Source: Spartobacteria bacterium
Lineage (GTDB): Bacteria > Verrucomicrobiota > Verrucomicrobiia > Chthoniobacterales > UBA10450
Direction: 5' to 3'
DNA: 33,273 nucleotides
NCBI GenBank assembly: GCA_003167365.1
Contig: PMTM01000005.1
Location: forward strand, 1-33,273
Translations under genes and position numbers: made by a program
Notes under the pieces: model-generated
Databases searched by the model: none
What the model saw: only the letters and a program-made list of their open reading frames with translations
What the model was told of the DNA's origin: nothing
In this document: piece after piece, positions 20,530-26,721 of the stretch
How positions within the stretch are numbered: position 1 is the stretch's first letter
Layout: each line of letters starts with the position of its first letter

Positions 20530-21153
20530 CTATGGCCACCAGGCGGTCACCACGCCGCCGGCCATACCGAGCAAAGTTCCGGTCAACATTTCTGGCACGT
20601 CGTGCCGTTGCAAATACAGTCGCGACCAAAATACCAGCAGAGCAAGCGCCAATGCGATCACACCGAAAGCTGGCTGAACGCGAAAGAGAATCACCGTGCA
20701 ATAAAACGCGAAAAGCGCGTGCAACGAAAGTTTGATGCGAAAATTCGCAATCGCCGCGACCACGAGCAAACCCAGAGTGACAAATGCCCCGCGCGCCATA
20801 AAGGCGGGCGCGCGCAAGAACCAAAGTATGGAAACACCCAAGGCCGAGATCGGAATCGCCATGGGATAGAAACGATTGCGCTCCTTTCGCACGGAAACGT
20901 CCGCATCGCTCCAGCGGCCCGAGCGGACACCGCGAAACAGCAGCAACGCCGTCGGAAAAATCACCGAGAGCAGCAGCGCTAGCAAAACGGTGACGCCAAC
21001 CCGGTTCGGCAGCCGCAATGCGATCACGACGCCGACCGATAACGTTACAAACACCAACGGATGACCAATCCAGGAAATGGCGCGGGCAAAACGCACGCTC
21101 GCGTTCAAAGGCGATTGTCGGTCCTGCGGCGAAACCAACCCTGCGTCGTTCAT
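20530..21153 (-). CDS. PAP2-related integral membrane protein
   Basis: A 207-residue protein with about five or six transmembrane helices. Its layout resembles lipid phosphatase/PAP2 proteins. Polar clusters sit where the three PAP2 motifs should be: RKERNRFYP (motif 1 region), NFRIKLSLHALFAFY (Ser-x-His, motif 2-like) and WSRLYLQRHDVPEMLTGTLLG (SRx-x-x-x-RHx3E, motif 3-like). The final Asp of the classical SRx5Hx3D motif is Glu here, and a canonical PSGH is absent. Activity on lipid phosphates is therefore uncertain. The start overlaps the fahA stop by four bases (ATGA), implying co-translation. An upstream extension to 21252 was rejected because it lies inside fahA and is Arg/Cys-rich. Confidence 0.8.
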   Translation of the reverse strand: MNDAGLVSPQDRQSPLNASVRFARAISWIGHPLVFVTLSVGVVIALRLPNRVGVTVLLALLLSVIFPTALLLFRGVRSGRWSDADVSVRKERNRFYPMAIPISALGVSILWFLRAPAFMARGAFVTLGLLVVAAIANFRIKLSLHALFAFYCTVILFRVQPAFGVIALALALLVFWSRLYLQRHDVPEMLTGTLLGMAGGVVTAWWP

Positions 21154-22409
21154 GCAGGAACTATGCGCCCACTCACCTCGCCGAACCCGACTCGATATCC
21201 TTCGCCTTCGCACCAACCGGTAATGGCAAGCGCATCGCCATCCTCCAGCCATTTGCGCATCTCGCCGTTGGGCAGTTTCAACGGATTCGCGCCGCGCCAG
21301 GTCAGTTCGAGCATGCAGCCGCGCGAATCCTCGGTCGGTCCGCTAATCGTGCCACTAGCCAAGAGATCGCCGGGCTGAAGATTGCAGCCGTTGACGGTGT
21401 GATGAGCGAGTTGTTGCGAAATGCTCCAGTAAAGATTTTGGAAATTCGTTCGCGTGATCACGTGTGGCTCGCTCAATTTTTCGGTTTGCAATTGCGCTTC
21501 GAGATGAATGTCGATGGTGAAATCATTCGCCATCCGCAAATATGGCAGCGGCTCGGGATCTTGTGGCGGAAGCGTTTTGCGAAAAGGCTCGAGCGCATCA
21601 AGTGTCACGACCCACGGCGAAATGCTCGTGCAAAAGTTTTTGGCCAGGAACGGACCGAGCGGCTGGTATTCCCACGCTTGAATATCGCGTGCGCTCCAAT
21701 CGTTCATCAGCACCATGCCAAAGATGTGATCGACCGCGCGACCAATCGGCACTGGCTGACCAAGCGCATTGCCCGGCCCAATGAGGAATGCCATTTCCAG
21801 TTCGTAATCGAAGCTTTTGCTCGGACCAAAGACCGGCTCGACCGCGTCCGGCGGTTTGGTTTGACCCTGCGGTCGCCGCACATCGGCGCCACTGACAACA
21901 ATCGAACTGGCTCGTCCGTGATAAGCGACCGGCAGCCATTTCCAATTTGGCATGAGCGCGTTCTCCGGGCCGCGCAGCATCGTGCCGACATTGTGCGCGT
22001 GGTGATACGACGAATAAAAATCCGTGTAATCGCCGATGCGCGCCGGCAGCTGCATCGCAACATCTTTTTGCGCGTGAAAGACGCGGGAGCGCAGCGCAGA
22101 GTCGTCGCGCAGAGCCGGTGTGTCCGCGGCCAGAAGATTTTGCAGGACCTCACGCGTCTTCCGCCAGGCGGGACGGCCGAGCGCGAGAAACGCGTTGAGA
22201 GAGTCTTCCGAGAAGACCTGCCGATCTTTAAACTCCGGCAAGCGAAAATGCCCCTTTTCCTCGAGGACAGAAAGATCGACAACGTAATCACCGATCGCGA
22301 CGCCAACCCGGGGAGCGCGAGAGACGATATCGCGCGGTTTGAAAACTCCGAATGGCAGATTCTGAATTGGAAAATGCGAATCGGGCGCGACGTCGATGAA
22401 GGATTTCAT
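21150..22409 (-). CDS. fahA: Fumarylacetoacetase
   Basis: Hydrolyses 4-fumarylacetoacetate to fumarate and acetoacetate, the last step of the homogentisate branch of tyrosine and phenylalanine breakdown. At 419 residues it matches mammalian FAH in length, with a constant +4 offset for key residues. Metal ligands are Asp130 (YTDFYSS), Glu203 and Glu205 (DYELEMAF) and Asp237 (MNDWSARD). Catalytic or substrate residues are His137, Arg241, Gln244, Tyr248, Lys257 and the Glu of MLELTW. The N-terminal FAH_N domain opens with FIDVAPDSHFPIQNLPFGVF. All checked residues are conserved, so it should be active. Homogentisate dioxygenase and 4-hydroxyphenylpyruvate dioxygenase genes are not in the window. 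A paired-hairpin repeat precedes it. Confidence 0.96.
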   Translation of the reverse strand: MKSFIDVAPDSHFPIQNLPFGVFKPRDIVSRAPRVGVAIGDYVVDLSVLEEKGHFRLPEFKDRQVFSEDSLNAFLALGRPAWRKTREVLQNLLAADTPALRDDSALRSRVFHAQKDVAMQLPARIGDYTDFYSSYHHAHNVGTMLRGPENALMPNWKWLPVAYHGRASSIVVSGADVRRPQGQTKPPDAVEPVFGPSKSFDYELEMAFLIGPGNALGQPVPIGRAVDHIFGMVLMNDWSARDIQAWEYQPLGPFLAKNFCTSISPWVVTLDALEPFRKTLPPQDPEPLPYLRMANDFTIDIHLEAQLQTEKLSEPHVITRTNFQNLYWSISQQLAHHTVNGCNLQPGDLLASGTISGPTEDSRGCMLELTWRGANPLKLPNGEMRKWLEDGDALAITGWCEGEGYRVGFGEVSGRIVPA

Positions 22410-22421
22410 TTGAATTTAAAT

Positions 22422-22487
22422 AGGTAGGGACGTTTCTCCGAAACGTCCGTCGAATTCGTCGGACGGCTCGGAGAGCCATCCCTACCT
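22422..22487. repeat. REPIN-like inverted pair of hairpins
   Basis: Two 33-bp halves in inverted orientation match at 27 of 33 positions. Outer arms AGGTAGGGA/TCCCTACCT close the element. Each half folds alone: GGACGTTTC-TCC-GAAACGTCC on the left (perfect 9-bp stem) and, read on the minus strand, GGATGGCTC-TCC-GAGCCGTCC on the right (one wobble). The spacer is around the palindrome CGAATTCG. It fills most of the gap between the 304-residue gene and fahA. Confidence 0.8.
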
Positions 22488-23401
22488 TACAAAAATCCGA
22501 GAGCGCGTAAATCTTCGCGCGGTTCGTCAAAGCTACAACTGCCAAATGAAGTCACTAATTTTCTTCGCTCCTGGATCCGCTTCGTGTCGATCTTCCATCC
22601 GTGCCAGGCGAAACCATCGTCATCAAACGAAAACGAGGTCGTATCCTCGTCATCCAGCATTGCGACTGTCTGTTTTTCATCCCATCGGTGTTCCGCGGCG
22701 AGCACTCCTGCGCCAAGCACATTGAGAAAGCCGTACATCTTCGCCTTCACTTCGTCGCGGAATTGCCGCACCGGATGATGCAAGCCAGCGGTAAACTTGA
22801 TCGGGATTTCGTGTTTCTCCGATTCAACCAGGGCGCGCGCGATTTGCTGCGAATGCGGGAACGCATCTGCCGTGACGCCGCCGGTTCGCAACTTGTAGCC
22901 AAACGTGCGCGCGAGCGTGTTGGCGTGATGCTCCGCCAGCGAAGCGATCGTTTGCGCCGCTTGGTCGGCCGGCGTTTCCCAGAATGCGTCCAGTTCGCCG
23001 ATGATCGATTGCGCCTCGGCCAGCGAATCGGCGTTGATCTCAGCTGGCAGCGGCATCTCAAGTTGGCTGATGAAAACGATATCGCCATGGCGAGTCGCAA
23101 ACGACCGGATCGTTTCCATCGTCATCTTCAAAGCCGATCTGAAATCGTTGGCATTTTCCGTTTTCGGTCCGAGCGCCGAAATGCGTAGCGGATATTGCCG
23201 ATCGAATTGAGAAACACCGGCAGATGCCGCATCGAATTTTGCGATCGGAAGAACAAATGCACTCAGCACCCAGGAATCTGGCGAACGCACATATTGAGCC
23301 TGGTTCTTCAGCGCGGGTCCGAGCGCGAGGCTGCACGGCGGAAACATTCCGGCGTAATCAATCGATCGCGCGAGCAGAGCGTGAAGAGAAGCGGCCGCCA
23401 T
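22487..23401 (-). CDS. Conserved protein of unknown function between two FAH-family genes
   Basis: A 304-residue soluble protein without signal peptide or membrane helix. I recall the sequence type as a conserved, unnamed family in Verrucomicrobiota, Planctomycetota and Acidobacteriota. Hallmarks are an N-terminal LARSIDYAGMFPPCSLALG, a central RTGGVTADAFP and IPIKFTAGLHHPVR, then KMYGFLNVLGAGVLA, and a C-terminal FGSCSFDEPREDLRALGFL. Alternating strands and helices with Lys/His/Arg near strand ends (KFTAGLHH) suggest a TIM-barrel-like enzyme, but this is inference. The start is three bases after the stop of the FAH-superfamily gene, so the two are surely co-transcribed; fahA follows beyond a repeat. 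A role in aromatic acid catabolism is suggested by position only. Confidence 0.85.
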   Translation of the reverse strand: MAAASLHALLARSIDYAGMFPPCSLALGPALKNQAQYVRSPDSWVLSAFVLPIAKFDAASAGVSQFDRQYPLRISALGPKTENANDFRSALKMTMETIRSFATRHGDIVFISQLEMPLPAEINADSLAEAQSIIGELDAFWETPADQAAQTIASLAEHHANTLARTFGYKLRTGGVTADAFPHSQQIARALVESEKHEIPIKFTAGLHHPVRQFRDEVKAKMYGFLNVLGAGVLAAEHRWDEKQTVAMLDDEDTTSFSFDDDGFAWHGWKIDTKRIQERRKLVTSFGSCSFDEPREDLRALGFL

Positions 23402-23404
23402 GTG

Positions 23405-24382
23405 TTAACCTGGTCGCGCCACAACACGTGCGTGCAAGACTCCCAATCGCTCGATCTCGAGCTCGACGACATCTCCGGTTTTCAACCAGCCGCCCGTGTT
23501 TTCCGGACCGAGCTCGAGGATACAGCCGAAGCCAACCGTGCCACTACCGATCACGTCACCCGGAAAAAGATCAGCATCACGCGAAGCGTGCACGATCATT
23601 TTGGGAAACGTGTGATACAAGAACGAACTGTTGCCGCGCGATAGTTCGCGGCCGTTCACGCGCGCTTGCATCTGCAGCGAGAGAGTCTCGTTGTTGACCT
23701 TGTCCGCAAATTCATCGCGCGTGACCAGCACCGGCCCGAGGCCAGTGGCAAAATCCTTTCCTTTGGCCGGCCCGAGCCCGACCGGCATCTCCGCCCGCTG
23801 CAAATCGCGGGCGGTGAAATCGTTGATGATGGTGAAGCCGGCGACGCAATTCCAGGCCTGCGCCGGCGTGACATTGCGGCACCGTTTCCCGATGACAACT
23901 CCAAGCTCGAGCTCGTAATCAAGTTCCGTCGAACCGGCCGGCGCAAATACCGCATCGTCATCGCCAATGAAGCAATTTGGATTCGAGAAGTAGAAAACCG
24001 GTATTTCGTACCAGGCTGGATTCATATCTTCGCCGCGTCGCGCGCGGGCTGTTCTCACGTGCTGCTCAAATGCGTAGAAATCGCGAAAAGTCGAGGGCCG
24101 CAGGATTGGCGGAAAAAACCTGCGCACCCGCATCGTTTTCCCGCCGTCCTTTTGAAAAACGCGGCCGTGCTCCGGCCAGTCGCTTATTTTTCGCGTCAGC
24201 TCGGAGAATCTTGGCATCAGCGTGGGAAGAAACTGTTCCAGTGGAGCGCCCGGATTTTCCGGCAGTTCTCGCGCGCCAAAAAACTTGAGGAACGGATGAA
24301 GCGCGACCCAGTTCTGCGCATCAACGGAAACCGCAGCGACCGGTTTGTTTCCATTTTCGGGGAGAATGGTTGCGAGGCGCAT
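23405..24382 (-). CDS. FAH-superfamily hydrolase or isomerase
   Basis: A 325-residue protein of the fumarylacetoacetate hydrolase superfamily, clearly distinct from the full-length FahA downstream. The N-terminal part (RLATILPENGNKPVAAVSVD) is a short cap; the core begins at TFRDFYAFEQHVRTAR. Metal-site motifs are TELDYELELGVVIGK (two Glu) and TIINDFTARDLQRAEMP (Asp), followed by GPAKGKDFATGLGPVLVT. Members act on acylpyruvates, 2-hydroxyhepta-2,4-diene-1,7-dioate and related diketo acids, so the substrate cannot be fixed. ATG 24382 was preferred over an in-frame TTG at 24406 that would overlap the upstream gene. It sits 10 bp after the epimerase-like gene and 3 bp before the unknown 304-residue gene. 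Confidence 0.93.
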   Translation of the reverse strand: MRLATILPENGNKPVAAVSVDAQNWVALHPFLKFFGARELPENPGAPLEQFLPTLMPRFSELTRKISDWPEHGRVFQKDGGKTMRVRRFFPPILRPSTFRDFYAFEQHVRTARARRGEDMNPAWYEIPVFYFSNPNCFIGDDDAVFAPAGSTELDYELELGVVIGKRCRNVTPAQAWNCVAGFTIINDFTARDLQRAEMPVGLGPAKGKDFATGLGPVLVTRDEFADKVNNETLSLQMQARVNGRELSRGNSSFLYHTFPKMIVHASRDADLFPGDVIGSGTVGFGCILELGPENTGGWLKTGDVVELEIERLGVLHARVVARPG

Positions 24383-24392
24383 AATGAATTGC

Positions 24393-25331
24393 CTAATCGG
24401 AACCAAACTGCGGCGTCACCACAAACGAAGCGCCCAATTGCTTGCCTGGCGGAATCTTCTGAATGCCTTCCTTATCTTCGAACGCGCGCTGTTCGTGGTG
24501 ATCGGTCAGTCCCCAGCATGGCTCGATACAGAGAAAGGGTCCGCCATCCGACCACAACGTGAGGTAAGGCACGCCGGCTAGATCGACCGTCACCGAACGG
24601 CGGCGCGGTGGATCGACATAAACCAGTTCGCGATCGGGCACATCGATCAGCTCGAGGATGTACGAGCCGGGCAATTTCTCTTTGGCGAAGGGCATTTCGC
24701 CGCCGCCGAAATTTATGTCCTCGGTTTCTCCGGAGAGATAATTATCCGGCGAAAAATATCTTCGATATTTTCCGGCAGGCATTTGGAGATGAAAAGATTC
24801 GAATGAAGTCGCGGCGAAACCGGGGTGCAATCCAAAACCGACGTGTGCGGTCAGATTTGACTCGTCGTTCTTGAAATCGAAGGCAACTCTGACTGAGTTG
24901 CCTTCGATCGTATAGGTCAGATCGAGACTGACTTTGAGCGGATATTCGATTGTGGAAAAATCCTCCGGTGCGATTCGATACGTCAGAGCGCCATTATCGA
25001 TCTTATTTTTGACAAGCTGCCACGTCTTCGTTCGCAGAAAGCTGTGCGTGCCGCCCTTGATTTCCTGGCCGCGATACAAGCTGCGTCCGTCTTTAAGGCG
25101 ATGGAGAAAGTAACCCATCACGGTGGCGTGATTCGCCCAACCTTGTGATGGTTTGGTAATGTCATTGTCCCGGTAAAGAAAACCGATCCATTCGCCAGAT
25201 TCGTCCCGCCGCGCCAAACTGATCGGTTCCGCGCCGAACCGCGAGACGATAATGCGCAGTCCGGTTTCTTCGTCAGTTAGAATATCGAGCAATCGATCGT
25301 CCCGTTGCTCTTCGCGATGCGAAAACTTCAT
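24393..25331 (-). CDS. Aldose 1-epimerase/galactose mutarotase-like protein
   Basis: A 312-residue beta-sandwich protein of the aldose epimerase superfamily, which interconverts alpha and beta anomers of sugars. Supporting segments are an N-terminal RIIVSRFGAEPISLARR strand pair, WANHATVMGYFLHRLKDGRS (the usual N-R-hairpin region), LTAHVGFGLHPGFAA with the conserved His-Pro, and LTLWSDGGPFLCIEPCWGL with a conserved Glu near the end. It resembles the more divergent YeaD/LacX-type proteins rather than GalM. It begins 6 bp after the glutamate dehydrogenase stop and ends 10 bp before the FAH-superfamily gene, so it sits in the middle of an amino-acid catabolic operon. The reason is unclear; the true substrate may not be galactose. 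Confidence 0.88.
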   Translation of the reverse strand: MKFSHREEQRDDRLLDILTDEETGLRIIVSRFGAEPISLARRDESGEWIGFLYRDNDITKPSQGWANHATVMGYFLHRLKDGRSLYRGQEIKGGTHSFLRTKTWQLVKNKIDNGALTYRIAPEDFSTIEYPLKVSLDLTYTIEGNSVRVAFDFKNDESNLTAHVGFGLHPGFAATSFESFHLQMPAGKYRRYFSPDNYLSGETEDINFGGGEMPFAKEKLPGSYILELIDVPDRELVYVDPPRRRSVTVDLAGVPYLTLWSDGGPFLCIEPCWGLTDHHEQRAFEDKEGIQKIPPGKQLGASFVVTPQFGSD

Positions 25332-25337
25332 CGCGAC

Positions 25338-26600
25338 TCATGGGAACAATCCCCGGACGCTTTTCGCTTTTAGGACGCGCTCGACACCAATCGACATGGC
25401 GGCGGTGCGATGTGAAATTTTGTTCTCCTTCGCGCGCCGAATCACTTGGGTGAAGGAATGCTCGAGAATGCGGAAAAGTTTGTCTGTCACTTCCATTTCG
25501 CTCCAGAGAAACGATTGCAAGCCCTGGACCCATTCAAAGTAGGAAACGATCACGCCGCCCGCATTACAAAGAATGTCTGGAATGACGAATACTTCGTCCC
25601 ACCGTTTCTCGAGAATCAAATCCGCTTCGGGCGAAGTCGGGCCATTCGCGCCTTCCGCCAGAATCCGGCATTTCAATTGCGCGGCATTCTTCTCCGTGAT
25701 CACGCGATCGACCGCCGCGGGAACGAGCACGTCGCACGGCATAACGAGCATCTCGTTTGGATCGATCCGATCGCCCTGATCAAAGGCTTTCAGGTTGCCC
25801 TTCTTTATCACGTGCTGTTCGGCCGCTTTCACGTCGATGCCTTTTGGATTGTAAAGCGCAACGGTCGCGTCGCTGATGCCGACGATCTTAATGCCTGTTT
25901 TTAACGCAAGCGACAGCGCAGCAACCGAGCCGACGTTGCCGAATCCTTGCACGATGGCGGTGCATTTCGCCGGATCCATCTTGAGCATGTCCATCGCGCG
26001 TTCGATCAGGTAAACCACCCCGCGACCCGTCGATTCCCGCCGGCCTTCCGTTCCACCGATCGAGACCGGTTTGCCGGTGACGATCTCGCTTACGGAGTAA
26101 CCCTGATAAACCGAATACGTGTCCATGAACCACGCCATGACTTCCTCGTTCGTGCCCATATCCGGGCCCATGATGTCGGTGTGCGGACCAACGAACGGAA
26201 TCATCTCCTGCATGTAACGGCGGGAAAGCGCTTCGAGTTCGCGATGCGAAAGCGTCGCCGGATCGCACGCGATTCCACCCTTGGCGCCGCCGTAGGGCAA
26301 ATTTGCCAGCGCGCATTTCCAGCTCATCCACATGGCCAACGCCGCGGTCTCACCCATCGACAATGACGGCGCGAACCGCGTTCCACCTTTGGTCGGGCCG
26401 AGCGTTAGATGGTGTTGGACTCGATAACCTTGAAAAGTTTTTGTGCTCCCGTCATCCATGTGCACGGGCAACGTCACCGCGATGGCGCGCTTCGGATACA
26501 TGAGCCGATCGCGGTCGTTCTTGTCGATGTTCAGGTAATCAGCGATGACCTTAAACTGCGTGCAGGCCATTCGAAAAACATCGTCATCGTAAATACTCAT
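25338..26600 (-). CDS. Glutamate dehydrogenase (Glu/Leu/Phe/Val dehydrogenase family)
   Basis: A 420-residue cytoplasmic enzyme catalysing reversible oxidative deamination of glutamate to 2-oxoglutarate and ammonia. Active-site residues by comparison with clostridial GDH are Lys71 (GPTKGGTRF), Lys95 (WMSWKCALAN), catalytic Lys107 (LPYGGAKGGI) and Asp147 (GPDMGTNEEV). The Rossmann domain carries IVQGFGNVGSVAA. The chosen ATG 26600 opens MSIYDDDVFRMAC; an in-frame extension to 26648 adds an unlikely stretch. Cofactor specificity is not readable by eye. It heads the minus-strand block and lies divergent to the trans-sulfuration gene, so the 121 bp between them should hold both promoters. A CCGGG-act-CCCGG hairpin sits 10 bp before its start. 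Confidence 0.93.
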   Translation of the reverse strand: MSIYDDDVFRMACTQFKVIADYLNIDKNDRDRLMYPKRAIAVTLPVHMDDGSTKTFQGYRVQHHLTLGPTKGGTRFAPSLSMGETAALAMWMSWKCALANLPYGGAKGGIACDPATLSHRELEALSRRYMQEMIPFVGPHTDIMGPDMGTNEEVMAWFMDTYSVYQGYSVSEIVTGKPVSIGGTEGRRESTGRGVVYLIERAMDMLKMDPAKCTAIVQGFGNVGSVAALSLALKTGIKIVGISDATVALYNPKGIDVKAAEQHVIKKGNLKAFDQGDRIDPNEMLVMPCDVLVPAAVDRVITEKNAAQLKCRILAEGANGPTSPEADLILEKRWDEVFVIPDILCNAGGVIVSYFEWVQGLQSFLWSEMEVTDKLFRILEHSFTQVIRRAKENKISHRTAAMSIGVERVLKAKSVRGLFP

Positions 26601-26609
26601 GTATGCGTG

Positions 26610-26622
26610 CCGGGACTCCCGG
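26610..26622. promoter_or_regulatory. Short palindrome in the divergent intergenic region
   Basis: CCGGG-ACT-CCCGG, perfect 5-bp arms, 9 bases upstream of the glutamate dehydrogenase ATG. It could be an operator half-site pair or a leader hairpin that hinders ribosome access. A stretch this short may also be chance. Confidence 0.3.
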
Positions 26623-26721
26623 AAGAACAACCTATTTCCGCCTATCAAATCCAGCCGTCAAATGTAATTCGCTGGCGAGGCACTGGATTTTCGCTCATGT
26701 TCGAACGCCAATGAGATCGAC

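Follow-up and report, generated by a model that had tools for sequence, protein, structure and literature searches.

A conserved TIM-barrel-like protein encoded beside fumarylacetoacetase is a candidate glutathione-independent maleylacetoacetate isomerase

The window, that is the whole stretch of 33,273 nucleotides that was analysed, carries on its minus strand a gene of 304 codons running from ATG to TAA (22487–23401), which we call X together with its product, P0001. Its ATG lies 3 bp behind the end of a gene for a short FAH-superfamily hydrolase of 333 amino acids (23405–24406, minus strand; PF01557, E 3.8e-59), and 77 bp separate its stop codon from the start of fahA (21150–22409, minus strand), which codes for a long fumarylacetoacetase of 419 amino acids, the enzyme of the next pathway step (TIGR01266 with 640 bits at a cut-off of 375; PF09298 and PF01557). 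The sequence-only reading had described an open reading frame of 304 residues 3 bp after an FAH-superfamily gene and followed by an intact fumarylacetoacetase gene, and coordinates and family matches bear this out; the strand, which it left unstated, is the minus strand. Further upstream and on the same strand are the genes of an aldose-1-epimerase-like protein (24393–25331; PF01263, E 1.3e-10), found upstream of X in many relatives as well, and of a glutamate dehydrogenase-family protein (25338–26648; PF00208/PF02812; NF040817 with 452 bits, below the cut-off of this model). As these genes share one strand with gaps or overlaps of only a few bases, the locus is likely a five-gene transcription unit with the glutamate dehydrogenase-family gene at its head, whose product would return 2-oxoglutarate to tyrosine aminotransferase.

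Between X and fahA lies a long, near-perfect hairpin of 70 nt (22415–22490, minus strand; AGGTAGGGA...TCCCTACCT; −47.9 kcal/mol as RNA, z −8.25), whose end motif is found only once in the window. It looks REP- or MITE-like and is not thought to be part of the enzyme system. At the edge of the window, a gene at 1–1118 contains 51-nt coding tandem repeats followed by collagen-like GPTG/GATGPAG repeats.

In the homogentisate pathway tyrosine is converted via 4-hydroxyphenylpyruvate to homogentisate and further to maleylacetoacetate and fumarylacetoacetate, which is finally split into fumarate and acetoacetate. In the genome of the window hmgA and hppD are found together on another contig, away from X (C21; L155 2842–7811), and the later steps of the pathway are complete except for the isomerase. 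Read by eye, the neighbours of this gene pair are folE-like (GTP cyclohydrolase I), 6-pyruvoyl-tetrahydropterin synthase (PTPS)-like and SDR genes, and a phenylalanine-4-hydroxylase-like gene lies near the corresponding genes of a relative (L161 1–1395). The pterin genes probably supply pterin for phenylalanine hydroxylation.

X has no match to any Pfam or NCBIfam model at E 1, the FAH model PF01557 included, and none among the sequences of solved structures (PDB); no Pfam family was matched consistently by 66 aligned homologues. The sole profile match in the PDB, a 4-alpha-glucanotransferase (E 0.057), is anchored on a DYAGLF motif and is regarded as fortuitous. The gene is kept in 24 of 25 genomes of the same family, with relatives at 52–68% identity, and at least 567 relatives were confirmed in a scan of public genome contigs; X is thus a real gene. 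Across the phylum Verrucomicrobiota it occurs in 5 of 288 genomes. The 80 loci among those listed in the scan come from Bacillota, Chloroflexota, Bacteroidota, Ignavibacteria, Planctomycetota, Calditrichota, Armatimonadetes, cyanobacteria and a Poseidoniia archaeal MAG, and plasmid records with X were found for Priestia, Streptomyces, Pseudonocardia, Rhodococcus, Nonomuraea and Kovacikia, in which the homologues, where annotated, are labelled 'hypothetical protein'. The earlier view of X as conserved yet uncharacterised is therefore accurate, with relatives in many phyla and coverage by no family model. In the libraries and open papers that we covered, the family is not described.

The genomic context of X is highly regular. 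Among the public loci listed that have at least 600 bp downstream of X, fahA is the next gene on the same strand in 65 of 72, and this linkage spans Bacillota, Chloroflexota, Bacteroidota, Planctomycetota, cyanobacteria and the archaeal MAG. One of the seven remaining loci is an overlap in ORF calling (L075), and the other six have no fahA next door; five of these six genomes (G325, G344, G357, G359, G366) have a full FahA elsewhere, in G357 only 3 kb from X on the same contig, and G767 is the only one with X and no full FahA. In every annotated record examined X stands beside fahA. The gene order is hppD-X-fahA-hmgA in Bacilli (in Priestia hppD-X-fahA-hisC-hmgA-permease), hmgA-X-fahA in Pseudonocardia and Rhodococcus, X-fahA in Streptomyces and hppD-hmgA-X-fahA in Chloroflexota and Poseidoniia. 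A homogentisate operon with hmgA or hppD and fahA is the context expected of an enzyme of EC 5.2.1.2. The sequence-only reading had linked X to this pathway and had set a gene-neighbourhood survey of the homologues as a check; the survey found X strongly tied to fahA, hmgA and hppD, and X almost certainly belongs to the homogentisate pathway.

The same association is seen when whole genomes are compared. In a sample of 398 genomes of Bacilli, 14 have a FahA above the family cut-off, and X lies directly upstream of fahA in 13 of them, while all 43 FahA-negative genomes tested lack X (Fisher p 6e-12); in the 288 Verrucomicrobiota X is present in 5 of 9 FahA-positive and 0 of 279 FahA-negative genomes (p 8e-9), both p values being overstated since related genomes are non-independent draws. 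The agreement between separate phyla is the stronger argument. Among 13 order-level relatives without X, FahA is above the cut-off in none. Single genomes deviate: G188 has a FahA and no detected hmgA, and in G759 FahA lies away from hmgA and X is absent. For hmgA itself the Pfam model of the HmgA C-terminus, PF04209, detects hardly any HmgA protein of these lineages, the Gram-positive type being among those missed, and an annotated Priestia HmgA was used as query instead. Annotation by Pfam alone would wrongly call the homogentisate pathway incomplete in these lineages.

These operons have an enzyme for every step of the pathway except the isomerisation of maleylacetoacetate. The known enzyme for this step, the glutathione-dependent MaiA of the GST-zeta type (TIGR01262, EC 5.2.1.2), is above the model cut-off in none of 68 X-bearing genomes, and in 66 of the 68 nothing is found even at E 0.001; isomerases of a kind so far unknown could still exist there. 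In plasmids of Sphingobium, Rhizobium and Acinetobacter, maiA fills the slot beside fahA. In the proteobacterial plasmids sampled, the neighbour of fahA is often maiA, and X is found in none of them although about a hundred of those among the matches listed hold fahA. Likewise, X is in none of the maiA records among the best 60 of each list. The absence of maiA alongside X is partly a lineage effect, because the sampled lineages mostly lack any GST matches. The idea that X marks only glutathione-free organisms is weakened by the cyanobacteria Moorena and Kovacikia, which carry X next to fahA.

Taken together, the pathway linkage, the co-occurrence with FahA, the absence of maiA and an isomerisation left as the only step without an enzyme suggest that X is a glutathione-independent maleylacetoacetate isomerase, a reading that we hold to be probable. 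The sequence-only reading had suggested an enzyme or partner protein of the pathway and had named no reaction; it is the absence of maiA that points to this one. X would convert maleylacetoacetate, the product of homogentisate dioxygenase, to fumarylacetoacetate, on which the fumarylacetoacetase of the adjacent gene acts, and would thereby replace MaiA, with which it shares the place in the pathway and the slot beside fahA. Both proteins are unrelated in sequence, MaiA having a thioredoxin/GST fold; X matches no NCBIfam model, TIGR01262 among them, and with its predicted TIM barrel it is not a member of the GST group.

An AlphaFold model of X built on 66 sequences is of high confidence (mean pLDDT 97.1, pTM 0.93) and shows a TIM barrel, as had been guessed from the sequence. 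A Foldseek search with this model gave many weak TIM-barrel matches; after realignment DERA and engineered DERA make up all of the 45 best solved structures (Z 13.4–15.5), and the next fold reaches 12.3. The predicted model of X is thus a DERA-type TIM barrel, which aligns with DERA structures with Z up to 15.5 and 3.6 Å over 223 residues at 7–13% identity. Among the matches is PDB 7p76, an engineered DERA variant; such variants carry out chemistry comparable to the iminium mechanism considered below. DERA (TIGR00126, EC 4.1.2.4) is the only characterised family for which such a likeness was found, and the likeness is structural: X matches neither TIGR00126 nor the Pfam DeoC model at E 1, the profile–profile probability is 3%, and most genomes with X have a separate true DERA. 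Membership in the DERA family was therefore dropped. Neither of the outcomes that the sequence-only reading had named as refuting it, homologues unlinked to aromatic catabolism or a confident match to an unrelated characterised family, was obtained.

The three motifs quoted in the earlier reading, RTGGVTADAFP and KFTAGLHHPVR among them, are all present, and their columns are invariant or nearly so throughout the family. Among the residues that stay unchanged down to 26% identity are Asp15, Glu142, Lys170, Arg172, Lys202, His208, Arg212, Asn227, Cys289 and Ser290; Glu115 is nearly invariant. In the model strands 6 and 7 carry Lys170 and Lys202, respectively, and Cys289 immediately follows strand 8, a position that in TIM barrels belongs to the active-site end. 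In the profile alignment Lys170 and Lys202 fall on Lys167 and Lys201 of DERA, its two catalytic lysines, of which Lys167 forms the Schiff base; with a profile probability of only 3% this correspondence depends for the most part on the fold and the order of the strands. By eye, Asp15 is located at strand 1 like Asp16 of DERA. In contrast, strand 8 of DERA, a lyase, is phosphate-binding where X appears to have Cys289.

A lysine at the Schiff-base position together with a cysteine at the barrel mouth suggests activation as an iminium and reversible thiol addition. Lys170 would form an iminium with the C4 ketone of maleylacetoacetate, Cys289 would undergo reversible addition at the C2=C3 double bond and so make rotation possible, Lys202, Asp15 and Glu142 could handle the protons, and Arg172, His208 and Arg212 could hold the carboxylates. 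This lysine/cysteine mechanism, which builds on the predicted model, is hypothetical, and we would give it somewhat less than an even chance.

Actinobacteria are known to isomerise the related compound maleylpyruvate with thiol-dependent enzymes. The mycothiol-dependent maleylpyruvate isomerase would share its chemistry with X on an analogous substrate and differs by its DinB fold. One could thus propose that the substrate of X is a different pathway metabolite, such as a side product, and that maleylacetoacetate is isomerised spontaneously or by another enzyme with bacillithiol or mycothiol. Three Opitutaceae (G094, G109, G156), which have hppD, hmgA and fahA and lack both X and maiA, speak for this proposal; in these a third solution must exist or FahA acts alone, and a few Opitutaceae thus contradict the assumption that every FahA needs X. 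G156 retains a remnant of X, with in-frame stops, directly before the intact fahA (L131 5309–5590; C1:1413308–1413589), which indicates that X was once present there and has since decayed. Against a different substrate stands the strict pairing of X with the long FahA and its mutual exclusion with maiA, which match the missing step exactly, and we regard this proposal as very unlikely.

Equally improbable, in our judgement, is that X cleaves maleylacetoacetate directly, as a hydrolase or lyase, and makes isomerisation superfluous. Hydrolysis of maleylacetoacetate in Bacillus, described in an older report that PMC4457819 cites, and the resemblance to the lyase DERA would agree with this. However, X travels with the long FahA, which would be needless beside a direct hydrolase, and the cleavage of a beta-diketone is of the Claisen type and not of the aldol type. 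Moreover, 16 Bacilli possess a second type of operon in which a short FAH stands beside hmgA and the long FahA is absent (for example G478 and G617; loci L213–L228, L242, L243). None of these 16 carries X, so that X goes with the long FahA rather than with hmgA as such. The short FAH of these pairs, to which the short FAH in the window (23405–24406) is 48–59% identical, may hydrolyse maleylacetoacetate directly and is the better candidate for a hydrolase. FAH proteins (PF01557) are operon partners of X with a different fold. The three-gene operon of about 3.9 kb described for the Bacillus cereus group in PMC4457819 and PMC6193087 seems by its size to be of this short-FAH type; the X family would therefore be no answer to the missing isomerase of that group, whose gene these papers give as not identifiable in B. 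anthracis (PMC4457819) and B. thuringiensis (PMC6193087).

Weakest of all is the suggestion that X serves as a partner without catalytic function or as a regulator, for instance by activating FahA or helping it to assemble: the nearly obligate adjacency to fahA would agree with it, but acid, base and cysteine residues that stay invariant where the strands of a TIM barrel end, in proteins only 26% identical, are the signature of an enzyme, and proteobacterial FahA has no such partner.

An isomerase role for X would also bear on older observations. Hagedorn and Chapman reportedly described in 1985 a glutathione-independent maleylacetoacetate isomerase activity in Gram-positive bacteria, which like the proposed activity of X needs no glutathione. 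In the open papers searched, we found no gene assigned to this activity or to a glutathione-independent maleylacetoacetate isomerase in general. A proteomic study of Rhodococcus globerulus detected HmgA and HmgB while the cells were using the pathway; the passages covered name no isomerase (PMC11889516). The reaction proposed for X is itself already known; what is new, in the scope covered, is the family. The most far-reaching form of our proposal combines several claims, namely that X represents an undescribed family with a DERA barrel which carries out cofactor-free cis–trans isomerisation by a lysine iminium and cysteine addition, that GST-zeta has in this family a counterpart widespread among prokaryotes and that the family accounts for the decades-old activity without a gene. 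This we put forward tentatively, and with somewhat less conviction than the mechanism taken by itself.

The breakdown of tyrosine and phenylalanine via homogentisate is textbook knowledge, yet many bacteria use this route with no recognisable maleylacetoacetate isomerase, as the two Bacillus papers state (PMC4457819, PMC6193087). If X is this isomerase, it supplies the missing step in Paenibacillus, Priestia, Streptomyces, Rhodococcus, Chloroflexota, Bacteroidota, Planctomycetota, soil Verrucomicrobiota and, among archaea, at least one genome, hundreds of 'hypothetical proteins' would receive a name and pathway maps would be corrected. If in addition the mechanism is true, X would be a natural aldolase barrel with the chemistry of iminium-type conjugate addition, which DERA has acquired through laboratory engineering.
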